Below the pieces are notes generated by a model. The model did not search any database and was not told the origin of the DNA. It was given only the letters and a program-made list of their open reading frames with translations. The translations under genes and the position numbers were made by a program. Shown here piece by piece: positions 26,934 through 39,891 of a stretch of DNA of 64,000 nucleotides; the stretch's first letter is position 1; each line of letters starts with the position of its first letter. The stretch lies in the NCBI GenBank assembly GCA_024639885.1, contig JAHEGD010000001.1, forward strand, positions 62,001 to 126,000, in the 5' to 3' direction. The DNA comes from Porticoccaceae bacterium. Lineage in GTDB: Bacteria > Pseudomonadota > Gammaproteobacteria > Pseudomonadales > Porticoccaceae.

Positions 26934-26966
26934 AAAAAAACCCCGCTGTCGCCAGCGGGGTTTTTT
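26934..26966. terminator. Bidirectional terminator, suhB / TonB-dependent receptor
   Basis: The stem CCCCGCTG/CAGCGGGG (26941-26948 with 26953-26960, loop TCGC) is flanked by seven A on the left and six T on the right. It serves suhB (plus) and the convergent receptor gene (minus). Confidence 0.92.
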
Positions 26967-26981
26967 ATTGCTCAGCAACCG

Positions 26982-29501
26982 TTAGAAGCGGTAGCTAAAG
27001 TCGACGCCGTAGGCATCACGCGCACCCGGGTGGATGAACGAGCCGCCAAACTCCGGCGCTTGAATCACCTCCTCGAGATACTCCTCGTCGGTGATGTTCT
27101 TGCCCCACAGCGTGACATCCCACTGCTCGCCACTCAGCGAGACGCGTGCGTTGAGGGTGTCGTAAGCATCGCGCTTCGCTTTGCTGAAGTTTTGGTTATT
27201 ACCGCCACCGTAGAATACATTCCAGACCGTCGGACTCTCCTCGCCCTGCATGGTGTGGAACCAGGTCTCGCCGACGTACTGCCAGTCCAAACGCGCTACC
27301 AGATTGATACCAGTCGCCACCTCGGTGTCGAATTCGGCACCCAGGTTATAGGTGCGGTCTGGTGCCTGCGGAGCCTCATTGCCGACCGACAACGGACGGT
27401 TGACGTTCTCTTTAATCTCGCTATCGATCAAGCCGACCCCGCCGAATAACGACAAGTTTTCGGTCACCACGGCGTTAAAATCCGCCTCAAAGCCGCGGAT
27501 ATTCAGTTCGTCGATGGTGGTCACCACCCGCATCAAACCAAACGGGCCAGCGAAGAATTCGAAGAACTGGCTATCTTCGACAGTGGTGTCAAACACGGCT
27601 GCATTGACGCGCAGGCGGTTATCAAAGAACTCCATCTTGGCTCCCAGCTCGTAGCTAGTAGAGACTTCTTTAGCGTACTCATCTTTAACATTCAGCTGAG
27701 CATCTACCGCCACGCCGGGGCTACCACAAGTGGGCAAAAAGAACGGGCAGGTCTCCCCGTACCAAAAATCGATCAACGCTTCACTCCCTATGGAATTGAA
27801 TCCGCCGCTGCGGAAACCAACCCCAGCGCTGGCATAGACATTGACGTCGTCGTTCACCGCCCAGCTGAATGTTGCCTTAGGCTGGAACTGGCTGAAAGTC
27901 GCACTACGACTGGGAATCGACTGAATGTCGGCAGTAAACGCCGGATTGATAAAGCCGGAAGAGTTGGCATTGTTACCTGAACCCGTAGCGTAAGGCACGT
28001 TGTTGTCCACATCGCGCTCTTCACGGTCATAGCGACCCGCAAAAGCCAATTCCATGGTCTCATTCAAATCGAACTCTACTTGGCCAAACACCGCCATCAC
28101 AGATGTGTCAAACGTATCGTCAAACATCAAGTCAGTAGGATTTGGGCCATCGGCTGGGACATAAGGCTGAAGTAAAAAACCGTTGCCAGTATCTTGGCCG
28201 TAGGCAACCACGACATCACGCTCGATCTCAGCCGCATACAGACCAGCAATCCAGCGCAGCTCGGAATCTTCGTCAGACGTAAACCGCAATTCGACACTGG
28301 TATCAGTCTGGTTGCGTTCTTGATACTGGTAGCCGTCACAGCTAGTTGGCGTGTATGGACCGTAGACTCCCTCGCCAGTAGTGGCTGGATTGACACCAAA
28401 CGGCGCAAAGTAGTCGCCAAACAGGTCGCTGCGACCTGCACCACCAAAGCTCGTAGGCATGTTGTTCAGAGTGGCGCGGTCTGCCAAGCACGACTCAGTG
28501 GCATCATAGGCGTAAAACGATGCCGAGGTACCGTCGGAGAGTAAAAACTCCTCTAAGTCGCTATAGCTGATGACTAACGAGACATCGACGCCATCGCGGT
28601 CCCAATCGGTCTTGATTGAGAACTCGTTGGTCTCCTGCTCATTGATGCCCGGTACGTTATTGGCGAAAATAAAATTGTGGCCGTTAACATCGGCGTAATA
28701 AGACGAGTTGAAGAATGTTTCAAACTGTGGGATCGCAAATACCGCATTGAAGTTAATCGCTCCGCCTTCGACCTCACTGTGGCCGGCGCGCACATCGACT
28801 TTCACATCGTCGCTGGCATTCCAGATCAACCGGCCGCGAACGGTGGTGTCCTCTAGGTAATCCACCGCACCTTGGCCGCCGCGAAAGACGTTGCTGTAGT
28901 GGCCGTCGGTCTCTTTCTGGCTAATGCTGAGCCGGCCGAGCAGTACGTCGTCCACCAATGCGCCACTAACTACCGCGCTGGCGCTCTTGGTACCGTTGTT
29001 GCCGGCACCCACTTTCACCTTGCCTTCAAACTCGTTTTCCGGCTCGTTGGTGGTGACCAAGATCGCGCCCGACACGGCGTTGCGGCCGTAGAGTGCGCCC
29101 TGCGGGCCTTTAAGCACCTCGATCTGGCGCACGTCCAGCAGCTCTTCGTTAAAGCTGTTGGGGTTGGTCGCCAGTACGCCGTCCACCACATAGGCAAAGG
29201 TCGACTCGGCGTCGCGGGTTGAGACGATACCGCGAATGTTGACTTGGGTATCGCCAACGTTGGCCGAGTCGACGATCGTGACGTTGGGCATCAGGCTGAT
29301 AAAGTCAGCCGGGCGCTCAATACCGGCACTCTGAATCGTGCTCTCGGTAAAAGCCGATACCGCGATCGGTACCTCTTGCAGGTTCTCTGAACGCTTACGC
29401 GCCGAGACAACCACTTCCTCAATAGTGAAATCCGCCACGACTGGGGTTGCCAGGCTAGCGATGATGCTGGTTGCGAGTAATTTCTTAGCGGTTACTTTCA
29501 T
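26982..29501 (-). CDS. TonB-dependent outer-membrane receptor
   Basis: This 839-residue receptor has a signal peptide (about 1-23, cleavage near VVA|D), a TonB-box-like segment (TIEEVVVSARKR) and a plug domain (ADFISLMPNVTIVD, QIEVLKGPQGALYGRNAVSG). A 22-strand-type beta-barrel region ends in YGVDFSYRF with the C-terminal Phe used by the BAM complex. It imports an unknown, probably small organic, substrate at the expense of TonB energy. It follows the hydantoinase operon on the same strand with a 108-bp gap, so it may share its function. The sequence does not identify the ligand. Confidence 0.94.
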   Translation of the reverse strand: MKVTAKKLLATSIIASLATPVVADFTIEEVVVSARKRSENLQEVPIAVSAFTESTIQSAGIERPADFISLMPNVTIVDSANVGDTQVNIRGIVSTRDAESTFAYVVDGVLATNPNSFNEELLDVRQIEVLKGPQGALYGRNAVSGAILVTTNEPENEFEGKVKVGAGNNGTKSASAVVSGALVDDVLLGRLSISQKETDGHYSNVFRGGQGAVDYLEDTTVRGRLIWNASDDVKVDVRAGHSEVEGGAINFNAVFAIPQFETFFNSSYYADVNGHNFIFANNVPGINEQETNEFSIKTDWDRDGVDVSLVISYSDLEEFLLSDGTSASFYAYDATESCLADRATLNNMPTSFGGAGRSDLFGDYFAPFGVNPATTGEGVYGPYTPTSCDGYQYQERNQTDTSVELRFTSDEDSELRWIAGLYAAEIERDVVVAYGQDTGNGFLLQPYVPADGPNPTDLMFDDTFDTSVMAVFGQVEFDLNETMELAFAGRYDREERDVDNNVPYATGSGNNANSSGFINPAFTADIQSIPSRSATFSQFQPKATFSWAVNDDVNVYASAGVGFRSGGFNSIGSEALIDFWYGETCPFFLPTCGSPGVAVDAQLNVKDEYAKEVSTSYELGAKMEFFDNRLRVNAAVFDTTVEDSQFFEFFAGPFGLMRVVTTIDELNIRGFEADFNAVVTENLSLFGGVGLIDSEIKENVNRPLSVGNEAPQAPDRTYNLGAEFDTEVATGINLVARLDWQYVGETWFHTMQGEESPTVWNVFYGGGNNQNFSKAKRDAYDTLNARVSLSGEQWDVTLWGKNITDEEYLEEVIQAPEFGGSFIHPGARDAYGVDFSYRF

Positions 29502-29609
29502 GCTTCTCTCCTAGGTCTTTCCGTTATGGTCGTACTGTTAAATGGTTACTGCTTTGCTACACCTTCTTACTAATAAAAAACTTTATCCAATTGCCCTGCC
29601 AACTATCGC

Positions 29610-31484
29610 TTAGCGAAACGTCGGCGCCACCGGTGCCGGCAGGTGGGTCTCTGTTTCACAGCGGCTGCGCAACTCCTCAACGCTGCCACCAAAGTTGAAC
29701 AGCGCCGGCTCATCGCTGCGCGCTGCCGCCATCTCGGCGCGCAGTGCGGCGGTCGCGCCGCTGTCGACGCTGCCGTCGGCGGCGATCACGACACCGTAGT
29801 CGCGGGCACCGGCCACGCTGACCAAACGTCGCTCGACGTCGGCGCGCACCAGCTCGGGGTCGCGCTGCAGCGGATTGCCCCAACCGCCGCCACCCCAAGT
29901 GTTGAAGTAGAGCAGGTCGCCTGCTTTAACTTTGATTCCCTCGGCCTTGGCCGGCAGCCACTGCTCGCTGCCATCGGCGCGCACAATCCGCTTGGTCGAG
30001 CGCATCCCGGTATCGCCGCCAAGCACGCCCCACGGGTAGGTCAACCAACGCTCATCGTGGATGCCGATGGTGCCGTCAGCGAGGAACCGGTAGGCAACGC
30101 TGAGGCCGTTGCCACCGCGGTGCAGGCCGGCTCCGCCCGAGTCGGCGATGGTCTCATAGCGTTCGATGCGCAGCGGGAAGTAAGACTCGATAAATTCGTT
30201 AGGCACGTTGGTGAAGCCCGGCCACAGCGAGTGGCCATCCGGGCCGTCGCCGACCGGCCGGCCGGGGATACCGCCAAAGCCGATCTGGAAGAGCTGGAAC
30301 CAGTCGCCATTTTTACCCTCGCGGTTGTCGTAACCGGAGTAGAACAGGTGGGGCGAATCCGAGAAGCCGGCGGCGTTGAGCATCATCTCTGGGGCACCCA
30401 TACCGAGCAGCGCGCCGAGCACATCAAAGATTCGGCCCAGCGCGTGGGTGCGGCCAGACAGTGCCGCCGGGTAGTTGGGCTTGAGCAGCGTGCCCTGCGG
30501 GATACGCACATCCACCAGGTCATAAAAGCCGTCGTTAAAGACAATCTGCGGGTCGACTACGTTGATGGTGAACGAGCCAAAGAACATCTTGAACATATCT
30601 TCGTTGAGGAAGAAGTTGACCGAGCTCTGCGCCTGCGGGTCGGTGCCGGCAAAGTCAAAGATCGCCTTTTCGCCTTCGCGCCACATCTTGCACTTAATCT
30701 TGTACGGCCCCATGCCCATACCGTCGTCGCACAGGTAATCTTCAAACTCGCGCGGCTGCTCGGGGATAAACATACCAATAATATGCTTCATAGCGTCGTA
30801 GTTGCGCTGCAGCATCACATCCATGGTCGAGAACAGCACGTCGTCGCCAAACCGCTCGGCCAGCTCGACACAGCGTTTGGCTGCGGTATTGCACGCCGCC
30901 ACCAGCGCGTTGAGGTCGAAGCGGTTCCACTGCGGGGTGCGCACGTTGTGCAGAATCAGCTCGAGTAGGTCGGCCTGCAACACACCCTTCTTGTAGAGCT
31001 TGGTCGGCGGTATGCGGATACCCTCTTGGAAGATGGTGGTCGCCTCGATCGGGATCGAGCCGGGCACCATGCCGCCGTTGTCCGACATGTGGCCGAACAT
31101 GGCCGACCAGGCGATGTGACGGCCCTCTTTAAAGACCGGCACCAGCACCACCCAGTCAGGCAGGTGCGAGACCGCCGCATTACACATATACGGGTCGTTG
31201 GTGAGAATCACATCGCCCTCTTCGATCTCGGCGTCGTAGGCTTGCAAAAACGGGCCGATAAACGAGCCGAACTGGCCGACCACCATCTTGCCGTCGCGGT
31301 TGGCGATCATCGGAAAGCAGTCGCCCTGCTCGCGGATACCCGGCGACATGGCGGTGCGAAACAGCACCGCATCCATCTCCTCGCGGGCGTTGCGCAGGCC
31401 GTTTTCAATAATGTCTACAGTCACCCCAGCCACCTCGACGGTGTTGAGCGGGGCGTGGTTGGTTTCAACGATTGTTGCAGTCAT
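29610..31484 (-). CDS. hyuB: Hydantoinase B / oxoprolinase family subunit
   Basis: This 624-residue protein matches the HyuB half of ATP-dependent hydantoinases, 5-oxoprolinases and acetone-carboxylase-like enzymes. Visible family blocks are FRTAMSPGIREQGDCFPMI, ILTNDPYMCNAAVSHLPDW, the C-terminal SGGAGLHRGGNGLSV, and a glycine-rich stretch before GNPLQRDPELV. It lies 13 bp after hyuA, so the two probably form one complex. The substrate could be a hydantoin, a lactam or a ketone to be carboxylated; sequence reading alone does not choose. Confidence 0.9.
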   Translation of the reverse strand: MTATIVETNHAPLNTVEVAGVTVDIIENGLRNAREEMDAVLFRTAMSPGIREQGDCFPMIANRDGKMVVGQFGSFIGPFLQAYDAEIEEGDVILTNDPYMCNAAVSHLPDWVVLVPVFKEGRHIAWSAMFGHMSDNGGMVPGSIPIEATTIFQEGIRIPPTKLYKKGVLQADLLELILHNVRTPQWNRFDLNALVAACNTAAKRCVELAERFGDDVLFSTMDVMLQRNYDAMKHIIGMFIPEQPREFEDYLCDDGMGMGPYKIKCKMWREGEKAIFDFAGTDPQAQSSVNFFLNEDMFKMFFGSFTINVVDPQIVFNDGFYDLVDVRIPQGTLLKPNYPAALSGRTHALGRIFDVLGALLGMGAPEMMLNAAGFSDSPHLFYSGYDNREGKNGDWFQLFQIGFGGIPGRPVGDGPDGHSLWPGFTNVPNEFIESYFPLRIERYETIADSGGAGLHRGGNGLSVAYRFLADGTIGIHDERWLTYPWGVLGGDTGMRSTKRIVRADGSEQWLPAKAEGIKVKAGDLLYFNTWGGGGWGNPLQRDPELVRADVERRLVSVAGARDYGVVIAADGSVDSGATAALRAEMAAARSDEPALFNFGGSVEELRSRCETETHLPAPVAPTFR

Positions 31485-31497
31485 GTTGTTCGCTCCC

Positions 31498-33555
31498 TTA
31501 AGCCGGGTTGATTAGCAGGTTGCCGACGCTGTCGACGGTGGCGGCAAAACCGGGCAGCACCACGGTAGTTGAGTCCATCTCGCTGATGATGGCAGGGCCT
31601 GGCACCACCAGCCCGGGGTGAAGCAGGTTGCGGTCGTAGATGGGCGCGGCGTGCCAGTCGCCCTGGTAGTAGAAACGGCTGTCATGCAGCTGGCAGTCGG
31701 CTAGGCTCTTGCCGGCCGTGCCCACCACTCGCTCGGCGATCGCCTTGCCGCGCGCTTTGACCACTGCGCGGATCATCAAGATCTCGTGGCCGTCGCCCAG
31801 TTTGAAGGTGAACAGCTGCTCGTGCTCGGCATCAAACCGGTCGGTTAGCAGCGCGATGCCGCGCGCCTTGAGATCGGCCTCAGTGAAGTCGACGGTTATC
31901 TGGAAGGCCTGGCCGGCGTAACGCAGGTCGGCCTGGTAGGTTACCTCGTGCTCGCTGGCGGGAATGCCGTCGGCCAGCAGCGACTCGCCGGCGCGCTCGG
32001 TCAGCTCGGCCAGATCGCTGAGCAGCTGCTGGTTAGAGATATCGCCGGCCATAGTCAGGTAGGTGCGCGCCGCCTCGTCTTGCACTTGGGTGGTAGCGTC
32101 GCCGTAGGCGCACAACACCCCCGGGCCGGGCGGCACAATCACCGGCCAGGCATCAGTCAGCACGCCGAGCGCGTTGGCGTGCAGCGGGCCGGCACCACCA
32201 AAGCCGACCAGCGCAAAGTCGCGCGGGTCGTAGCCCTGCTCGACCGAAACCAGCCGCAGCGCGCCGAACATCGCCTCGTTGACGATACGGATAATGCCCT
32301 CGGCCGCCTCCATTAATTCAATGCCCATCGCATCGGCCACGCTCTGCACCGCCGCGACCGAAGCGTCGCGGTTAATCTGCATCGCACCGCCCAGCTGCAC
32401 GTCGCTGGGCAGGTAACCGAGTACCACGTTGGCATCACAGACGGTCGGCAGCTCGCCGCCCTTCATATAACAGGCTGGGCCGGGTACCGCGCCGGCCGAC
32501 TCTGGGCCAACCCGCAGCGCTTTGGTTAGCTCCGGCACAAAGGCGATCGAGCCGCCACCGGCGCCGACTGTACGCACATCGACCGACGGCGCGCGCACCC
32601 GCACATCGCCGACGATAGTCTCGCGGCGCACCCGCGCCCGCGAATCTTGAATCAGCGCCACGTCGGTCGAGGTGCCGCCCATATCAAAGGTGAGAATATT
32701 GTTGTAACCGGCCCGCGAGCAGAAGTAGATCGCCCCCGACACACCCCCGGCCGGGCCCGACATCAGCAGGTTGACCGGCGACTCGCCGGAGGCGCGCGCC
32801 GACGCCAAACCGCCGTCTGAGCGCAAGATAGAGAGCTGGGTGTCGCTGCCCATTTTTTCGTCGAGGGCGGCCTGCAAGTTGTCGACGTAGCGGGCCACTT
32901 CCGGGCGCACGTAGGAGTTCACCACGGTGGTCTCGGTGCGCTCGTACTCCTGCATCTCTGGCACCACTTCGCTGGAGATCGAGATCGGCGTATCGGTAAA
33001 GATCTCGGCGGCGATCTCGCGGGCGCGCTGCTCGTGGGCGCCGTTCATGTAGGCGTTGATAAAACAGATGGTCAGTGCTTCGATGCGGCCCTTGGCCTTG
33101 AGTGCTAGCAGCGACTCGCGCAGCGCCGGCTCGTCGAGCGGGGTGACCACCTTGCCGTCAGCGTCGAGCCGTTCGACCGCGCCAATGGTCAGCTCAAGCG
33201 GTGCCAGCAGCGGTTTTTTGACAAAACTGACCCAGCCGCCAAGCCCGCCCGGGCAGTAGCTGCGCGCCACCTGCAGGGTATCTTCGTAACCGGCGGTAGT
33301 GACCAAACCGACCACCGCACCTTTGCCAGTGAGTACCGCGTTGGTAGCTACCGTAGTGCCATGCATGACCCGGCTGATCGCCTTTGGGTCGACACCCGAC
33401 TCTTCGCAGATGCGGGCGATACCGTTGAGCACACCAACCGACGAGTCGTGGGGCGTAGACGGCACCTTGGCCGTATAGGTTTGGCCACTGACTTCATTAA
33501 TCAACAGCAAGTCGGTAAACGTCCCGCCGACATCGACACCCAACCGATAACTCAT
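31498..33555 (-). CDS. hyuA: Hydantoinase A / oxoprolinase family subunit (ATPase)
   Basis: This 685-residue HyuA-type subunit has an actin/ASKHA-like ATP site: GVDVGGTFTDLLL at the N-terminus, MHGTTVATNAVL, then TFDMGGTSTDVALI and ALVGFGGAGPLHANAL. Family members couple ATP hydrolysis to ring opening of hydantoins or oxoproline, or to ketone carboxylation, together with HyuB. It sits between the HMGL-like gene (44 bp upstream) and hyuB. Confidence 0.92.
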   Translation of the reverse strand: MSYRLGVDVGGTFTDLLLINEVSGQTYTAKVPSTPHDSSVGVLNGIARICEESGVDPKAISRVMHGTTVATNAVLTGKGAVVGLVTTAGYEDTLQVARSYCPGGLGGWVSFVKKPLLAPLELTIGAVERLDADGKVVTPLDEPALRESLLALKAKGRIEALTICFINAYMNGAHEQRAREIAAEIFTDTPISISSEVVPEMQEYERTETTVVNSYVRPEVARYVDNLQAALDEKMGSDTQLSILRSDGGLASARASGESPVNLLMSGPAGGVSGAIYFCSRAGYNNILTFDMGGTSTDVALIQDSRARVRRETIVGDVRVRAPSVDVRTVGAGGGSIAFVPELTKALRVGPESAGAVPGPACYMKGGELPTVCDANVVLGYLPSDVQLGGAMQINRDASVAAVQSVADAMGIELMEAAEGIIRIVNEAMFGALRLVSVEQGYDPRDFALVGFGGAGPLHANALGVLTDAWPVIVPPGPGVLCAYGDATTQVQDEAARTYLTMAGDISNQQLLSDLAELTERAGESLLADGIPASEHEVTYQADLRYAGQAFQITVDFTEADLKARGIALLTDRFDAEHEQLFTFKLGDGHEILMIRAVVKARGKAIAERVVGTAGKSLADCQLHDSRFYYQGDWHAAPIYDRNLLHPGLVVPGPAIISEMDSTTVVLPGFAATVDSVGNLLINPA

Positions 33556-33599
33556 AGTGCTCTCCTACTGGTAAATGGTTCTATCTGTTTTATCAACGG

Positions 33600-34511
33600 C
33601 TAGGCCGCCTGTTTTTGTTGTTGGCGCTGCAGCCAGACTTTGGCCCGGCCACCCGGCGCCGAGCCGGTTAGCGCGGCAGCTAAATCGCTGGCTGCGAGCA
33701 GCCGGCCCATATCGATGCCGCTGCTAAAGCCGAGCTGTTCGATCAGCATGACCGCATCTTCGGTTGCCACGTTACCGCTCGCACCGGGCGCAAACGGGCA
33801 ACCGCCCAAGCCGGCAATCGAGGCGTCAAAGCGGCGCACGCCACTCTCTAGGGCGGCGTAGAGATTGGCGAGGCCGAGCGCGCGGGTGTCGTGAAAGTGG
33901 CAGCCGAGCCGGTTGGCCGGCAGCTCCGCTAAGAGTTGCTGGGTGAGCTCAGCCACTTGGCGCGGGTTGGCGGCGCCGATGGTGTCGGCCAGCACGGCCC
34001 GGGCGGCACCGGCGGCGACAAACCGGTTGGCGATGCGGGCCACCTCGGCCGGGTCTGTCGGCCCGTCGAACGGGCAGCCAAAGGCGACCGCGATAGTAGC
34101 GATCACTTCGATGCCGTCGCTGGCCGCCTGCTGCATAATCTCTTCGGTGATTGCCTCGGTGTCGCCCAGCCCCATATTGGCATTTTTACGCGCCATACCC
34201 TCGCTGGCGTAGAGCACCATGGTGACAGAGCGGGCACCGGCGTCGCGCGCCATCTCGTAGCCGCGACGGTTGAGAATAAGCGTGGTCGCCGCGCCCGACT
34301 GCTGGCGGTTGACCGCTGCCACCACTTGGTCGGTGTTGGCCATCGCCGGCACCAATTTGGGCGACACAAAGCTGCCGACTTCAACCTCGGCCAAGCCGGC
34401 CGCGTAGAGCGCCTCGATCAGCTCGCAGCGCTCATCCACGGTCAGCACCTTGGCCTGGTTTTGCAGCCCGTCGCGCGGGCCGACATCGGTAATAATCACA
34501 GACTCACTCAT
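33600..34511 (-). CDS. HMG-CoA lyase family enzyme
   Basis: This 303-residue TIM-barrel enzyme is related to hydroxymethylglutaryl-CoA lyase, which cleaves HMG-CoA into acetyl-CoA and acetoacetate. The motifs DVGPRDGLQNQ, VEVGSFVSPKLVPAMANTD, the metal ligands in GCHFHDTRALGLAN, and the catalytic Cys loop GLGGCPFAPGASGN are all intact. It is eight bases after a CoA-transferase gene, so a plausible reading is that the transferase makes a 3-hydroxy-3-methyl-acyl-CoA that this lyase splits. The true substrate is unproven. Confidence 0.9.
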   Translation of the reverse strand: MSESVIITDVGPRDGLQNQAKVLTVDERCELIEALYAAGLAEVEVGSFVSPKLVPAMANTDQVVAAVNRQQSGAATTLILNRRGYEMARDAGARSVTMVLYASEGMARKNANMGLGDTEAITEEIMQQAASDGIEVIATIAVAFGCPFDGPTDPAEVARIANRFVAAGAARAVLADTIGAANPRQVAELTQQLLAELPANRLGCHFHDTRALGLANLYAALESGVRRFDASIAGLGGCPFAPGASGNVATEDAVMLIEQLGFSSGIDMGRLLAASDLAAALTGSAPGGRAKVWLQRQQQKQAA

Positions 34512-34519
34512 AACGCCCC

Positions 34520-35719
34520 CTACTTGACGAAGCCGGCACTGCGCAGGTCGGCGATCTGTTGATCGCTCATCGCCAGCAGCTCGCGAAGAATTTGTTCGGT
34601 GTGCTCGCCGAGCAGCGGCGGCGAGCTGAAGCTCTCTTCGCTGCTGCGCGACAACTTGATCGGGTTGCCCGGTACCTGCGCCGGCGCCCCCGACGGGTGG
34701 GTGATATCGACCACCATGTTGCGGTGGCGAACCTGCGGGTCGTTCAGCGACTGGCTAAACTTATTGACCGGCGCGCAGGGAATACGGCGCTCTTCGAGCT
34801 GCGCCAACCAGTGTGCGCAGCTCTGCTTGCCAAGCACCTCGTTGAGGGTGGCATTGATAAAATCGGCATCGCGCAACCGGCCCGGCTGGCCGTCGTAATC
34901 GGGGTTGTTAAACGCCTCGACCTCGACCACCTCTTTGAGGTTCTGCCAGAAGTTGTCGGTGATCACCGCGATAACGATGAAGCCGTCACTGCAGCGGAAG
35001 GTGTTGTAGGGCACATGCACAAAGTGGGCGTTGCCGATCGGCTCTGGATCGACCCCGGAGAGCAGGTGCATGGTGGCCATGTAGTTGAGCAGCGACACCT
35101 GCACATCGAGCATAGAGATATCAACGTGCTGACCGAGCCCGCTGCGCTCGCGCTCATAGAGCGCCGCCAGAATACCCATCACCCCAAACATACCACCGCC
35201 CAAATCACCGATCGGGATACCGGCCCGCATCGGGTGCTCGGCATCGGTGCCGGTGATCGACATACCGCCACCGATCGCCTGCGCCACTTGGTCGAAGGCC
35301 GGCCGCTTGTGGCTAGGGCCGTCGGATCCAAAGCCAGAGATAGTGCAGGTAATAATCTTAGGGTTGACCACTTTCAGCGACTCAAAGTCGATCTTCAGCC
35401 GCTCCGGCACGCCGGGGCCAAAGTTGCTCAACACAATGTCAGACTTCTCTACCAGCTGGTAGAACAGCGCCAGACCCTGCGGGTCTTTCAAGTCGATAGC
35501 GACGCTCTTTTTATTGCGGTTGAGGGTCAAAAAATAGGCCCCCATACCGTCGACTGAGTTGTTCGGGTCGCTGGCCAACAGCTTGCGGGTGCCCTCACCG
35601 GCGAGCGGCTCGACCTTAATCGTCTCGGCGCCCAGGTCGGCTAAAATCATCCCGCCATAGGGGCCGGACAACATGTGGGTGAGGTCGAGAATACGCACAC
35701 CGGTCAGCGGCTTGCTCAT
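34520..35719 (-). CDS. CaiB/BaiF family (type III) CoA transferase
   Basis: This 399-residue protein begins with LTGVRILDLTHMLSGPYGGMILADLGAE and contains the Asp of family III transferases in KRPAFDQVAQAIGGG. It would move CoA from a donor such as succinyl-CoA to a carboxylic acid. Its ATG overlaps the stop of the amidohydrolase gene by 4 bp, which indicates coupled translation. Confidence 0.93.
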   Translation of the reverse strand: MSKPLTGVRILDLTHMLSGPYGGMILADLGAETIKVEPLAGEGTRKLLASDPNNSVDGMGAYFLTLNRNKKSVAIDLKDPQGLALFYQLVEKSDIVLSNFGPGVPERLKIDFESLKVVNPKIITCTISGFGSDGPSHKRPAFDQVAQAIGGGMSITGTDAEHPMRAGIPIGDLGGGMFGVMGILAALYERERSGLGQHVDISMLDVQVSLLNYMATMHLLSGVDPEPIGNAHFVHVPYNTFRCSDGFIVIAVITDNFWQNLKEVVEVEAFNNPDYDGQPGRLRDADFINATLNEVLGKQSCAHWLAQLEERRIPCAPVNKFSQSLNDPQVRHRNMVVDITHPSGAPAQVPGNPIKLSRSSEESFSSPPLLGEHTEQILRELLAMSDQQIADLRSAGFVK

Positions 35720-36342
35720 GCTTGCTCCAGGGTTGCACCGGCCGCAGCGGCCAGTTGGTTAAGTTGCTTTACGGTCTGCGCCAGGCTCTGTACATCGACG
35801 TACTTGGCGTGCATATCAAACAGGTTGGCGCGGTGCGCCTGCAGGTTGCGATCGCCGACCGCCTCTTCGACGACCACGCTGTAGTAGTCGTGCTGGAGCG
35901 CATCGACCGCAGTCGCACGCACACAGCCGCTGGTGGTCAGGCCACCGATCACCAAGCTGTCGACGGCAGCTAACTGGAGCTGCTCGGCCAGCTCGGTTTT
36001 GAAGAAGCCGCTCGCCCAGTGTTTTTCAATCACCCGCTCGCCGGCCAGTGGCGCTAACCGGCTGTCGACCTGCACCCAGCGCGAACCGGGGGTCAGCACA
36101 TTGAGCGCTGGCACCCGCTGGCGAAAAACTCGCGCCTGATCGGGCTGGCGGTAGATCACGGTGGTAAAAAAGACCGGCCAATGGTTGGCCCGAAACAGCG
36201 CCAACAGCTCTGCTGCCGCGGCCACAGCGCGCTCAGAGTCACTGCCGAGTGGACAGCTGGGATCGGTGAAGCCCTCGATCATATCGATCAACAGCAGGCC
36301 GGGGGTGCCGACTAAACCGAGCTGATTGCGTTGTAAATCCAT
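35716..36342 (-). CDS. Isochorismatase-family cysteine amidohydrolase
   Basis: The 208-residue product has the Asp-Lys-Cys triad of the family: LLLIDMIEGF (Asp), VIEKHWASGFF (Lys) and GLTTSGCVRATAVDALQ (nucleophilic Cys). The segment after the Cys resembles N-carbamoylsarcosine and maleamate amidohydrolases, which remove ammonia (and CO2) from carbamoyl or amide groups. As first gene of the hydantoinase operon it could hydrolyse the N-carbamoyl product of the HyuAB ring opening; this is inference. Confidence 0.88.
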   Translation of the reverse strand: MDLQRNQLGLVGTPGLLLIDMIEGFTDPSCPLGSDSERAVAAAAELLALFRANHWPVFFTTVIYRQPDQARVFRQRVPALNVLTPGSRWVQVDSRLAPLAGERVIEKHWASGFFKTELAEQLQLAAVDSLVIGGLTTSGCVRATAVDALQHDYYSVVVEEAVGDRNLQAHRANLFDMHAKYVDVQSLAQTVKQLNQLAAAAGATLEQA

Positions 36343-36402: not shown

Positions 36403-36439
36403 TGATATAGTTATATATCAAATTAACCGTATGTTGCAA
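36403..36439 (-). promoter_or_regulatory. Putative promoter and palindromic operator of the hydantoinase operon
   Basis: The 211-bp gap between the divergent amidohydrolase and glutathione peroxidase genes is AT-rich here. A perfect inverted repeat TGATATA-GTTA-TATATCA spans 36403-36420. On the minus strand a TTGCAA (36434-36439) lies 17-18 bp before ATATAA/TATAAC inside that repeat, so the repeat would cover the -10 of a leftward promoter. Operator function is inferred; no regulator gene is adjacent. Confidence 0.35.
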
Positions 36440-36553: not shown

Positions 36554-37096
36554 ATGAGTTCACTAACCGCTATCACCATTAACAAGGCCGACCAGACCGC
36601 CACCACGCTCGGCGAGTGGGCCGGCAATGTTCTGCTGGTGGTTAACGTCGCATCAAAGTGCGGCCTGACCCCGCAGTACGAGGCACTGCAAGCCCTCAAC
36701 GAGCGCTTTGCCGAGCGCGGCTTCAGCGTGTTGGGGGTGCCCGCCAACGACTTTAAAGAGCAGGAGCCCGGCACCGACGCCGAGATTCAGAGCTTCTGCC
36801 AGGTCAACTACGGCGTCACTTTCCCGGTACTCGCCAAAGCGGTTATCACCGGCAGCGACAAGCACCCGCTCTACGCCGCGCTGACCGCCGCTCACCCGGT
36901 GACACCGGATCGCGAACGGTTTGCCGAACGTCTAAAAGGGTTTGGCATTGAACCGACCGCTGCACCCGAGGTACTGTGGAACTTTGAGAAGTTTTTGATC
37001 GGCAGAGACGGCGCCGTAGCGGCGCGGTTTGCGCCCGATGTGGCGCCCGATGATGCGGCGATCAGCGCTGCCATTGAAGCGGCGTTGGCGGCCTAG
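36554..37096 (+). CDS. Glutathione peroxidase family protein
   Basis: This 180-residue thioredoxin-fold peroxidase uses Cys, not selenocysteine, in NVASKCGLTPQYEALQ. The second site reads VPANDFKEQEPGT and the Trp site reads LWNFEKFLIGRDG. It reduces hydroperoxides, with thioredoxin or glutathione as reductant. The ATG follows GAGGAG. It is monocistronic and ends at a strong terminator. The gene is Cys-type although selD is encoded elsewhere in the window. Confidence 0.93.
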   Translation: MSSLTAITINKADQTATTLGEWAGNVLLVVNVASKCGLTPQYEALQALNERFAERGFSVLGVPANDFKEQEPGTDAEIQSFCQVNYGVTFPVLAKAVITGSDKHPLYAALTAAHPVTPDRERFAERLKGFGIEPTAAPEVLWNFEKFLIGRDGAVAARFAPDVAPDDAAISAAIEAALAA

Positions 37097-37165: not shown

Positions 37166-38776
37166 TCACTGCGCTCGCAGGGTGAAGCCTTGGTAACCTG
37201 AGGCTGCGATATCGGCGCAGAGCTGGCGGTAGGTACCCACACCGCCAATGTAGGAGAGCAGCCGACGCGGCTTTCCAACAATATTGCCGCCGGTGTACCA
37301 CCCGTTGGTATTGGCTAGCAGCGTGGCATTGGCTACCTCGTCGTGGTGCTCAACCCACCGGTCTTGCCGCTCTTTGGTTGGCTCCATACTGGCTATCGCG
37401 TTGCTGCTAATGTAGTTAATCGCGTCACTAACCCATTCAACCTGCTGCTGTAGACAGGTGGTCATGTTACAAAATGCGGTTGATGGTGCGAGTGGCCCGG
37501 CGATAGTAAACAGGTTGGGGAAACCGTGCACCTGCAAGCCGAGAGTAGAGCGAATGTCGCGGGACCATAGCTCGCGCAGCGACAGCTGATCGCGACCGCG
37601 AACATCCATTGCCGTCAGCGAGCCAGTGCCAGCATCAAAGCCGGTGGCCATGATCAATACATCTAGCGGGTATTCTCGCCCGGCAACCAGCAACCCGTTT
37701 TCGGTAAACCGCTCTATGGGGGACTCAGACACATCCACCAATTCCACGTTGTCTCGAGCGTAAGCCGCGTAGTAGCCGTTCTCTAACGGCACCCGGTAAG
37801 TACCAAAACCAAAACTGGTCGGGATCAGCTTGTCGGCCAGCAGCGGGTCGTCTATCGCTGCGCGGATCTTCTCGCGCGCAAAAATAGAGACCTCTTCATT
37901 GATCTTTTCATCGAACAATACCTCTGGAAAGGTGCCCACCCACATTTTAAGCGAGCCATCGGCCCAACACTCCTCGAGCCACTGGCGGCGCTCTTTAACA
38001 CTCAACGAAGTTGCCCAACCCAGCTCGGGCAAATCCCACTCAAATCCGCCAAAGGTATTTGGCAGCGACTCGGCAAACTGCTTGTGCCGACTTCGCCAGT
38101 AGTCGCCCTGCGCGCCGGTCAATGGGTAATTATTCATTTTCACTGCATATTGGGGCGTGCGCTGGAATACCGTCAGTTGCGCAACTTGCGACGCAATAGT
38201 TTGAATAACCTGTATGCCGGTGGCGCCGGTGCCAACTACGCCGACCCGCTTGCCGGTCAGGTCAATACCCTGCTGGGGCCAGCGCGCAGTGTGCACTATA
38301 TCGCCTTTAAACTGGTCATGGCCGGCAAATGGCGGCAGCTTGGGAGCCGACAGCATGCCCACACAGCTGATCAGATAGCGGGCACGCCAAACCTGCCCCG
38401 CCTCGCTGGTGACCACCCAGCGCGCCGCCGACTCATCCCAGTGGGCGCTAGCAATACGGGTGTTGAGCTGTACCCGATCGCGCAGGTCAAATTTATCTGC
38501 CACATAGTGAAGGTAGCGCTTAATCTCTGCCTGACCGGGAAAACGCTCACTCCACTGCCACTCGTCAAGCAACTCTTGGGAAAACCAGTACTGGTATGTA
38601 TAGGATGGCGAATCTAGCCGCGCGCCGGGGTAGCAGTTCCAGTGCCAGGTGCCGCCAATATCCTCGGCTGCATCGACGCACTGAACTGACATGCCGGCCT
38701 CGCGCAATTGGTAGAGCTGGTAGAGGCCGGCTATGCCGGCACCGATAATCAGCGCGTCGATTGATTTTGACTGCAT
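37166..38776 (-). CDS. Flavin-containing Baeyer-Villiger monooxygenase
   Basis: This 536-residue flavoprotein has an N-terminal FAD motif (IIGAGIAGLYQLYQLREAG), the Baeyer-Villiger fingerprint FKGDIVHTARWP and directly after it the NADPH motif GVVGTGATGIQVIQ. It inserts oxygen next to a ketone to give an ester or lactone; the substrate is not evident. The ATG at 38776 follows AGAGG; an upstream in-frame start would add 24 non-family residues. A divergent AraC-type regulator gene lies 125 bp away. Confidence 0.93.
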   Translation of the reverse strand: MQSKSIDALIIGAGIAGLYQLYQLREAGMSVQCVDAAEDIGGTWHWNCYPGARLDSPSYTYQYWFSQELLDEWQWSERFPGQAEIKRYLHYVADKFDLRDRVQLNTRIASAHWDESAARWVVTSEAGQVWRARYLISCVGMLSAPKLPPFAGHDQFKGDIVHTARWPQQGIDLTGKRVGVVGTGATGIQVIQTIASQVAQLTVFQRTPQYAVKMNNYPLTGAQGDYWRSRHKQFAESLPNTFGGFEWDLPELGWATSLSVKERRQWLEECWADGSLKMWVGTFPEVLFDEKINEEVSIFAREKIRAAIDDPLLADKLIPTSFGFGTYRVPLENGYYAAYARDNVELVDVSESPIERFTENGLLVAGREYPLDVLIMATGFDAGTGSLTAMDVRGRDQLSLRELWSRDIRSTLGLQVHGFPNLFTIAGPLAPSTAFCNMTTCLQQQVEWVSDAINYISSNAIASMEPTKERQDRWVEHHDEVANATLLANTNGWYTGGNIVGKPRRLLSYIGGVGTYRQLCADIAASGYQGFTLRAQ

Positions 38777-38901
38777 AGCGATACCTCTTCTAATTGAGCG
38801 CTTAGTATCCGCCCAGAATGGTGTGGCGTCTGCGCAGCAACGGCTCAAAAACTATGCAAAAAAGGAACAATATGCAAATATACTGAAAACGGGGAACCAC
38901 T

Positions 38902-39891
38902 ATGCTCAAGACCGACCAGCCAAGCTCCGGATCAACGGCGACAAGCCACAGTTTTAGCGGCGATACGGCGTCAGTGGCAAGCCATCTTTCACAAATTTTT
39001 GTGGAGCTTGAAGTCACCAGCCTGCGGCCCGACCAGACACTCTCAGGGTCGGTATCACGCGTGCCACTGGGCGACCTAGAGCTGCTGCGTTCAACCATTC
39101 CGAACGGCGGTATTCGGGTGCGGCGCTCAGCGGCACTACTGCGCCACTCTACCCATCAACACTATTACATCTGCTGCCTGATGAGTGGCGTCGCCACGCT
39201 CAATCAAGGTGGTGCAGAGGCCGAACTGATCGCAGCTGATATTGCCCTGCTAGACAGCAGCCAGACTTACACCATTGACGCCGCTGGGCCTATCGATGCG
39301 CTGTGGATAGCGGTGCCACGCTACCGTATCGAGGGCAGGCTAGCAAAGCCCAGCGAACAACTGGGCCAACGTATTGATGGTGCTAAAGGTAGCGGCTCGC
39401 TCGCATCGGGCCTATTGGTGAACGCCTTCATCGAGGCGGGCCGGCTTCCTGCGCACTCTGCTGAGCGAGTGGGCAACACTATCCTCGACTTGGTCGCTCT
39501 GGCGTTGACTGCCGACGCTAGCGCGACAAGTTCGCGGCCCGCCACACGGCTTCAAGGTGCCTTAGACTATATTGAAGCACACCTCTGCGAGCCCAAGCTG
39601 TCGCCACATCAGGTCGCCCAGGCGCAAGCGATTACCACCCGGCATCTCAACACACTGTTTAGCCGTAAAGCCACGTCGACGGCAAAGTGGATCCGACTTC
39701 GCCGTCTAGAGCGCTGCAGAGCCGATCTGCAGTCCAACCAGCAGCAGACCACCAGTATTGCAACCATCGCGCTGAATAACGGGTTCTCCGAACTGAGCAC
39801 ATTTAACCGGGCCTTTAAGAAACAGTTTGGCGTCGCACCGTCTGCCTTGCGGAACGCACCAGCCGAAAAAAAAGCCGCCAACCTTCGTTAG
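38902..39891 (+). CDS. AraC-family transcriptional regulator
   Basis: The 329-residue protein has an N-terminal sensor region of the AraC-binding-like type (HYYICCLMSGVATLNQGG) and a C-terminal double HTH (about 215-320). The C-terminus carries the family pattern ATIALNNGFSELSTFNRAFKKQFGVAPSALR. Being divergent from the Baeyer-Villiger monooxygenase gene, it probably controls that gene in response to its substrate. The gap between them is AT-rich. Confidence 0.92.
   Translation: MLKTDQPSSGSTATSHSFSGDTASVASHLSQIFVELEVTSLRPDQTLSGSVSRVPLGDLELLRSTIPNGGIRVRRSAALLRHSTHQHYYICCLMSGVATLNQGGAEAELIAADIALLDSSQTYTIDAAGPIDALWIAVPRYRIEGRLAKPSEQLGQRIDGAKGSGSLASGLLVNAFIEAGRLPAHSAERVGNTILDLVALALTADASATSSRPATRLQGALDYIEAHLCEPKLSPHQVAQAQAITTRHLNTLFSRKATSTAKWIRLRRLERCRADLQSNQQQTTSIATIALNNGFSELSTFNRAFKKQFGVAPSALRNAPAEKKAANLR

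Follow-up and report, generated by a model that had tools for sequence, protein, structure and literature searches.

The window analyzed here is a stretch of 64,000 nucleotides from a Porticoccaceae bacterium with a host genome of 2.2 Mb (contig JAHEGD010000001.1, positions 62,001 to 126,000; G000:C5:62001-126000). Its minus strand carries a cluster of six genes encoding an isochorismatase-fold cysteine hydrolase (ISO), a family III CoA-transferase (CaiB), an enzyme resembling 3-hydroxy-3-methylglutaryl-CoA (HMG-CoA) lyase (HMGL), the ATP-binding and metal-site subunits of a predicted ATP-dependent ring amidohydrolase (HyuA and HyuB), and a TonB-dependent receptor. Comparison across genomes gives good support to a conserved catabolic unit, complete or partial copies of which occur in further marine and soil bacteria, in a bacterium from a hot spring, and in salt-loving archaea. 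We give about an even chance that the cluster is an operon, regulated on its own and dedicated to catabolizing a cyclic imide or some larger compound that is converted to one, with the imide inferred from the partner genes. Such an imide would have an alkyl side group on a five-membered, two-carbonyl ring, as for example in citraconimide or a related alkylmaleimide or alkylmalimide.

Gene organization and conservation of the unit

ISO (35716-36342; PF00857), CaiB (34520-35719; PF02515), HMGL (33600-34511; PF00682), HyuA (31498-33555; PF05378+PF01968+PF19278), HyuB (29610-31484; PF02538), and the receptor (26982-29501; PF07715+PF00593) all lie on the minus strand, and the Pfam domains of all six scored above gathering thresholds. 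In the list of open reading frames (ORFs), the first five are separated by -4, 8, 44, and 13 bp, with a further 108 bp between HyuB and the receptor. The initial annotation had described five minus-strand genes of these families and spacings, followed by a TonB receptor gene, and the ORF and Pfam data agree on both counts.

Conservation was assessed in two sets of loci. One consisted of 38 stretches, fetched out of a larger set of matches, with HyuA 55-94% identical to that of the window; its controls were 20 other HyuA genes (30-41% identity), picked by open-frame length from 40 matches in the phylum sample and not genome-matched. The other consisted of the best 80 of 133 matches to HMGL. The sets overlap (L101/L002, L102/L024, L103/L029, L108/L068, and L117/L066 are probably the same contigs), so their counts are not additive, and the residue-conservation rows, drawn from both, include duplicates. 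Neighbors of the 38 HyuA genes were scored within about 9 kb; some loci stop at contig ends, which lowers partner counts, and matches covering too small a part of the query were excluded from the neighbor counts, the alignments, and the CaiB/HMGL tree.

Near the 38 HyuA relatives we found CaiB in 35, HMGL in 34, ISO in 29, a receptor matching that of the window in 27, and LeuC/LeuD, a sixth partner outside the view of the initial annotation, in 11. The corresponding counts for the 20 controls were 0, 0, 1, 0, and 0. The idea that ring opening, removal of amide nitrogen, CoA activation, and C-C cleavage form one combined pathway is supported by this difference. An accidental array of unrelated neighbors might be argued from the position of ISO, which varies among relatives and is missing near 9 of the 38, and from HyuA and HMGL genes that stand alone. 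The counts for CaiB, HMGL, and ISO speak against it, as do whole sets in Bacillota and Alphaproteobacteria, partial sets in Actinomycetota and Halobacteria, and a single operator site per genome (see below); its probability is negligible, and we take it as refuted by the neighbor counts.

At E ≤ 1e-180, 32 of the 390 order-level genomes and 14 of the 398 phylum-level genomes, counting that of the host, contained a HyuA relative. HyuA of at least 60% identity was present in 47 of the 80 HMGL loci, together with CaiB in 46 (40 at ≥45% identity), HyuB in 42, the receptor in 35 (33), and ISO in 32. The initial annotation had asked for the same five-gene order in other genomes; CaiB-HMGL-HyuA-HyuB ran contiguously on one strand in 38 of the 47, with the receptor and ISO next in 19. 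The ISO-first order of the window was, among the 47, common only to Gammaproteobacteria bacterium LSUCC0057, the nearest named relative found, whose proteins are 81-96% identical to those of the window. HyuA and HyuB were by far the better conserved: over the 47 loci without L002, median identities to the window proteins were 84% for HyuA and 88% for HyuB, versus 63% for HMGL, 59% for ISO, 71% for CaiB, and 70% for the receptor.

The remaining 33 HMGL loci lacked such a HyuA, some being cut at contig ends and some having a more distant HMGL; ISO (≥45%) was found in 15 of them and CaiB in 17. Occurrence of HyuAB, CaiB, and the lyase apart from each other in close relatives had been named as a finding that would count against a single pathway. 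For the most part they are together, the exceptions being these 33 loci and three of the 38 HyuA loci (L107, L121, and L126) with neither CaiB nor HMGL nearby.

The HyuA tree (67 loci, with L135 dropped as a short match and a long-branch warning among the controls) placed the cluster HyuA sequences, including those of Geobacillus, Rubrobacter, and haloarchaea, in one 47-row clade with 100/100 support, and all 20 controls outside it. CaiB or HMGL was nearby for 41 members of the clade, an alternative lyase for two, and neither for four. The window HyuA is the sole PF01968 match in the host genome at E ≤ 0.001.

All five genes also occur on plasmids of Acidiphilium, Geobacillus, and Novosphingobium, and partial sets on those of Rubrobacter and haloarchaea. 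The conjugative Acidiphilium plasmid carries leuC, leuD, an FAD oxidoreductase, HMGL, CaiB, HyuA, HyuB, and ISO; the Geobacillus plasmid has ISO-HyuA-HyuB-CaiB-HMGL, a transposase, and leuC-leuD; and that of Novosphingobium has the receptor, a GntR gene, HMGL, HyuA, HyuB, CaiB, and ISO. On plasmids of Natronomonas pharaonis and Halorientalis, HyuA-HyuB-ISO is followed by a lyase of the phosphoenolpyruvate mutase/isocitrate lyase family (the two lyases are 74% alike), and no CaiB or HMGL was matched beside these genes. The best PDB relative of the Natronomonas lyase is 2,3-dimethylmalate lyase (E 4.8e-53), and a 34% relative occurs in 1 of the 38 clusters (L115). In these two haloarchaea a dimethylmalate-lyase-like enzyme stands in for CaiB and HMGL, and in Haladaptatus what follows is CaiB and a LeuA-type protein with an HMGL domain. 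In a FastTree tree (37 chosen loci plus the window slice, read without supports), the CaiB sequences found with HyuAB fall into two groups, as do the HMGL sequences; therefore, the step appears to have been kept while the enzyme differs.

Predicted ring opening and release of the amide nitrogen

HyuA contains DVGGTFTD (position 8), DMGGT (291), and GAVPGP (355), with Asp8 conserved in 87 of 88 rows (one gap) and Asp291 and Gly355 in all 88. The caprolactamase study describes DxGGTxTD, DxGGT, and GxxPGP as the A-subunit ATP-binding motifs of the hydantoinase/oxoprolinase (lactamase) family, and also the metal ligands of CapB (PMC8453981). Aligned to the latter, the HyuB site of Asp55, His107, Asp110, and His132 was conserved in 86, 86, 86, and 82 of 86 rows, respectively. 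The fourth ligand is Asn in L088, L089, L090, and L094 (three haloarchaeal regions and Rubrobacter) and His in the other 82 rows. With its ATP and metal motifs intact, HyuAB is predicted to be an ATP-dependent ring amidohydrolase.

A different role, raised in the initial annotation, is that of an ATP-dependent ketone carboxylase, with the CoA-transferase and lyase processing a 3-hydroxy-3-methylglutarate-type acid. HyuA is related to subunits of acetophenone carboxylase (314 bits) and of acetone carboxylase (240 bits), and the nearest PDB entries of CaiB include succinate-hydroxymethylglutarate CoA-transferase (SUGCT), which it resembles. However, hydrolases score higher, and no gamma or epsilon subunit gene is present in the operon or named in seven annotated regions, no genome-wide search having been made. 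HyuA Asp298 is invariant (88 of 88 rows) and aligns to CapA D302, a position that is Asp in caprolactamase and Lys281 in acetophenone carboxylase (PMC8453981). A carboxylase would also leave ISO and LeuC/LeuD unexplained, and we consider it highly improbable. HMG as the product, a candidate prompted by the likeness of CaiB to SUGCT, was rejected since LeuC/LeuD and the dimethylmalate-lyase-like enzyme do not fit it.

The best NCBIfam matches of HyuA and HyuB are the caprolactamase subunits (540 and 194 bits, under an equivalog cut-off of 1000), and the caprolactamase study proposes the family to be ATP-dependent lactamases (PMC8453981). Both points would suit hydrolysis of a lactam or pyrrolinone by HyuAB, with ISO, CaiB, and HMGL working on the product of further enzymes. 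This seems to us distinctly unlikely, as a lactam would yield an amino acid and not the amide required by ISO, and as Natronomonas holds only HyuA-HyuB-ISO-lyase together, where few extra steps are possible. The cluster HyuAB resembles the CapAB caprolactamase of Pseudomonas jessenii and the N-methylhydantoinase/5-oxoprolinase family (PMC8453981) in its two subunits, ATP motifs, Asp-His-Asp-His site, and Asp at CapA D302. It differs in scoring far below the caprolactamase cut-offs and in forming a separate HyuA clade tied to CaiB, HMGL, and ISO.

The Asp20-Lys107-Cys140 triad of ISO was conserved in 67 of 67 rows. Its best PDB match was N-carbamoylsarcosine amidohydrolase (26st, 149.5 bits), followed by 3ot4/3uao (112.4 bits), 3uao being NicF, a maleamate amidohydrolase. 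By its triad and nearest relatives, ISO belongs with the cysteine amidohydrolases of the CSHase/NicF group. The nearest structures act on carboxylate-bearing carbamoyl or, for 3uao, maleamate substrates, which we count for the imide reading, where ISO is a predicted half-amide (maleamate-type) amidohydrolase. A 44% ISO relative, annotated as N-carbamoylsarcosine amidohydrolase, lies on Arthrobacter keyseri pRE1 (L093), a ring-dioxygenase/protocatechuate catabolic plasmid, and may be a phthalamate hydrolase.

Alternatively, the ring may be a substituted hydantoin or cyclic ureide, in which case ISO would decarbamoylate an N-carbamoyl acid and the branched acid would then be activated and cleaved. 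The sequence neighbors are in its favor, N-methylhydantoinase being the nearest PDB entry for both HyuA and HyuB, alongside the ISO match given above. An Asp/Glu/hydantoin-racemase family protein in L117, with relatives in L066, L119, L120, L132, L133, L039, and L040, would suit it too, as would the FAD_binding_2 oxidoreductase of L082, L083, and L126, which could be an amino-acid oxidase. However, an amino acid would remain after decarbamoylation, and the recurrent neighbor families that were annotated (a subset of the neighbors) included neither a transaminase nor an ammonia-lyase; moreover, LeuC/LeuD and the dimethylmalate-lyase-like enzyme use nitrogen-free malate-type acids. We therefore hold a hydantoin or ureide to be possible though unlikely.

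The creatinine/N-methylhydantoin pathway raised in the initial annotation has the same two enzyme families, N-methylhydantoinase and N-carbamoylsarcosine amidohydrolase, which here lie side by side, HyuAB and ISO being nearest to those enzymes. The clusters differ from it in CaiB, HMGL, LeuC/LeuD, and the TonB receptor, and this pathway would leave CaiB, HMGL, LeuC/LeuD, and the dimethylmalate-lyase-like replacement unexplained, so it was not retained. No creatinine deaminase or sarcosine-oxidizing enzyme is named in the seven annotated regions, one of which names ISO as N-carbamoylsarcosine amidohydrolase; no genome-wide search was made.

The LeuC/LeuD partner and the proposed route

LeuC/LeuD hydrates alkylmaleates such as 2-isopropylmaleate and citraconate. 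Where leuC is part of the cluster (10 of the genomes searched), every genome had at least one further leuC-type gene elsewhere, and 9 of the 10 searched genomes without one had exactly one leuC (G135, G159, G222, G465, G617, G665, G708, G681, and G693), the tenth (G699) having two. In a FastTree tree of 45 chosen loci, read without supports, the cluster LeuC sequences were spread over several separate places, which suggests repeated recruitment. Plain leucine biosynthesis was rejected for most clusters on these two grounds; L122 is a doubtful case, since its leuC-leuD pair runs convergently to ISO and groups with another copy from its own genome. The partner points to a 2-alkylmaleate or 2-alkylmalate, which makes a cyclic imide the more likely ring and gives ISO a more probable role as half-amide hydrolase than as decarbamoylase.

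In the proposed route, the receptor would import the substrate or a precursor. HyuA would activate a ring carbonyl with ATP and the metal site of HyuB would hydrolyze the ring to a half-amide, a mechanism taken from caprolactamase, with the type of ring surmised from the partners. Hydrolysis of the second amide bond by ISO would then free ammonia and leave a cis-dicarboxylate. If that acid is unsaturated, LeuC/LeuD would add water to give a 2-alkylmalate, a step for which the host would rely on its only LeuC/LeuD. CaiB would transfer CoA to the acid, forming an alkylmalyl-CoA, and HMGL, as a predicted alkylmalyl-CoA (citramalyl-CoA-type) lyase, would perform a retro-Claisen cleavage of the 3-hydroxyacyl-CoA, e.g., of citramalyl-CoA to pyruvate and acetyl-CoA. 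We chose an imide for parsimony, because CaiB and HMGL could finish the route from an alkylmalate with no further enzyme or redox step. Judged by their families, most cluster pieces would handle amides, cyclic amides, or malate/maleate-type acids.

Catalytic residues are conserved in the enzymes predicted for the last two steps. CaiB Asp172 was present in 85 of 85 rows, and Arg13, Asp14, Glu44, His205, His207, Cys238, and Asn247 of HMGL each in 86 of 86; the catalytic residues of human HMGCL are Arg-Asp, Glu, HxH, Cys, and Asn. HMGL matched PRK05692 at 307 bits (cut-off 246). A second HMG-CoA lyase of the host genome (G000:C2:24645-25535) scored higher, at 456.8 bits; the cluster HMGL is therefore probably not the leucine-degradation copy.

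Several observations weigh against the imide route. Within the roughly 9 kb scored, 27 of the 38 HyuA loci are without LeuC/LeuD, 9 without ISO, 4 without HMGL, and 3 without CaiB, and L107 has none of ISO, CaiB, and HMGL. Rubrobacter has CaiB, HyuA, HyuB, and ISO, but no HMGL within the 22 kb read. The host cluster itself lacks LeuC/LeuD, and the single LeuC over the cut-off in the host genome is located elsewhere; hydration would thus fall to the biosynthetic enzyme, unless the imide already has the oxidation state of a malate and needs none. Among the leuC counts, the cluster leuC of G106 is below the family cut-off, one copy in G068 has an internal stop, and the copy elsewhere in G750 is weaker. 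Known imidases are ATP-independent, and a requirement for ATP would point to a ring of lower reactivity; a ureide would also suit the nearest relatives of ISO and HyuAB (N-carbamoylsarcosine amidohydrolase and N-methylhydantoinase). The FAD_binding_2 family includes L-aspartate oxidase, and amino-acid deamination could occur at clusters with such an oxidoreductase (that of Acidiphilium, with relatives in L083 and L126). Lastly, accessory genes vary by lineage (maleate-isomerase/arylmalonate-decarboxylase-like, PuuE-like, SnoaL-like, monooxygenases, DUF1302/DUF1329/MMPL); what is taken up may therefore be a larger molecule and may vary from one lineage to another. The substrate, too, could differ between lineages.

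One speculative source of such imides, to which we assign a low probability, is oxidized chlorophyll, heme, or bilins, for which the cluster would be the missing lower pathway. Here HyuAB would open alkylmaleimides such as 2-ethyl-3-methyl- or 2-methyl-3-vinylmaleimide, or haematinic acid, and ISO would take off the nitrogen, after which hydration and cleavage would yield 2-oxo acids and acyl-CoA. The dimethylmalate-lyase-like replacement, PrpR-type regulators, and TonB or DUF1302/DUF1329/MMPL uptake would be compatible with such substrates. If this were true, marine bacteria and haloarchaea could use the carbon and nitrogen of pigment rings.

Parts of the imide route resemble known systems. 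Conversion of cyclic imide to half-amide to dicarboxylate by an imidase and a half-amidase in Blastobacter sp. A17p-4 follows the same logic, but its imidase is ATP-independent and of another superfamily, and the pathway is not known to include a branched-acid lyase module. In nicotinate catabolism, NicF maleamate amidohydrolase and NicE maleate isomerase act aerobically, and dimethylmaleate hydratase and 2,3-dimethylmalate lyase act in fermentation. The families are related for the ISO amide step, the haloarchaeal lyase, and the hydratase; the difference is that no pyridine-ring enzymes were seen in the window cluster, which has HyuAB in their place. In itaconate/methylsuccinate degradation (Ict, Ich, and Ccl of Pseudomonas and Cupriavidus), the lyase is CitE-type and the hydratase MaoC-type. 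That route is alike in CoA transfer to a branched C5 dicarboxylate and in lysis of citramalyl-CoA to pyruvate and acetyl-CoA (PMC12290011). The route proposed here would differ in hydration before CoA transfer, by LeuC/LeuD, in an HMGL-type lyase, and in prior removal of nitrogen, and Pfam searches of the window cluster found neither itaconyl-CoA hydratase nor CitE-type citramalyl-CoA lyase. The initial annotation did not recognize the pathway, and we likewise found no description of a matching pathway or cluster in the open-access literature.

The proposal offers a specific chemistry for genes found together time and again, from marine gammaproteobacteria to plasmids of haloarchaea, under labels such as hydantoinase, HMG-CoA lyase, isochorismatase, or N-carbamoylsarcosine amidohydrolase. 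If true, it would be a new ATP-dependent imide-opening route joined to branched-dicarboxylate cleavage, would explain the leuCD copies on catabolic plasmids, and would give an entry to the fate of nitrogen heterocycles in the sea, possibly including pigment-derived maleimides.

Regulation, uptake and accessory genes

A GntR/UTRA gene of one family was present in 35 of the 80 HMGL loci; in 21 of those listed it was divergently oriented and lay upstream of CaiB, either directly or one gene removed. In the window, the exact palindrome TGATATA-N4-TATATCA (36403-36420) lies 60 bp upstream of ISO; allowing up to two mismatches, 0.01 occurrences are expected by chance in the window. With the same tolerance, 25 of the 80 loci, but none of the 20 controls, had the palindrome no more than 300 bp upstream of CaiB or ISO. 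The exact pattern TGRTATA-N4-TATAYCA occurred once, at the cluster, in five of seven genomes (G000, G159, G222, G262, and G317) and was absent from G135 and G385, and a reversed control pattern gave no match in any of the seven. The palindrome is a predicted operator of the GntR/UTRA regulator. PrpR-type sigma-54 activators were near 16 of the 38 HyuA loci and 0 of 20 controls, those of Glaciecola and Geobacillus having a PrpR_N domain; such regulators suit a branched hydroxy-acid effector. A GntR/FCD protein occurs in L084.

A 46% GntR relative in the host genome lies away from the cluster, at G000:C39, next to a flavin monooxygenase, a flavin reductase, an alpha/beta hydrolase, and a thiolase. 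These neighbors were not taken as pathway members, since genes that look to us like nusA, infB, and truB also adjoin.

Uptake may proceed via the TonB receptor, for which a PDB search found no close or informative solved relative, via a DUF1302/DUF1329/MMPL/YCF48 module (L119; DUF1302 and DUF1329 also in L120 and L125), or via a branched-chain-type ABC system (L127).

The 3' end of the unit is marked by an intrinsic terminator (26935-26966, minus strand) called from hairpin fold statistics (z = -5.94; 0 of 200 shuffles equally good), a hairpin absent from the list of a pattern-based terminator scan of the region. A sigma-70 scan found no promoter-like site in the region. Upstream of ISO, beyond a glutathione-peroxidase gene on the plus strand (36554-37096; L002 has an uncharacterized ORF at this position, matching in strand), lies a minus-strand flavin monooxygenase gene (37166-38848), presumably of Baeyer-Villiger type by its motif FKGDIVHTARWP. 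It may supply an upstream step. Its relatives are at 74% in L002 and, distantly, at 30% in L070 and 27% in the Rubrobacter region L090, and because recurrence past the closest relative is only distant, we keep it only as a possible member. Membership is likewise uncertain for the divergent AraC-family regulator (38902-39891, plus strand), which has a 46% relative in L002.

Gene content varied further among related clusters. PuuE-like genes occurred in 11 of the 80 HMGL loci; in nine, they and a distantly related ISO paralogue lie together upstream of CaiB on the opposite strand. Asp/Glu-racemase-family and SnoaL-like proteins recur in L117, L119, L120, L132, L133, L039, and L040 at 44-74% identity, and L039 and L040 have HMGL and ISO with no HyuA. 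Three Microbulbifer loci (L064, L065, and L073) have ISO, CaiB, HMGL, the receptor, an MFS protein, a flavin monooxygenase, and maleate-isomerase/arylmalonate-decarboxylase-like proteins, with no HyuAB; this is possibly the same lower pathway fed via another ring-opening route. In L083 (Sphingomonas pJE1), HyuA-HyuB of the same clade stand beside FAD oxidoreductases and a REDY-like HapK protein, with no ISO, CaiB, or HMGL within 9 kb.

Genome G653 holds two HyuAB-LeuCD clusters, L121 and L124. L121, with flavin monooxygenase, maleate-isomerase-like, and PuuE-like genes, has a HyuA 81% identical to that of the window, versus 72% in the full cluster of the same genome, which suggests transfer between lineages. 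In L207 (G262:C34:22000-37690), modules that are separate in other loci adjoin each other around a second GntR copy. It is flanked on one side by genes for CaiB, LeuD-LeuC, an amidohydrolase, a further CaiB, and a cupin; the opposite flank holds two PuuE-like hydrolases, an ISO paralogue, and the first part of a window-type CaiB (79%).

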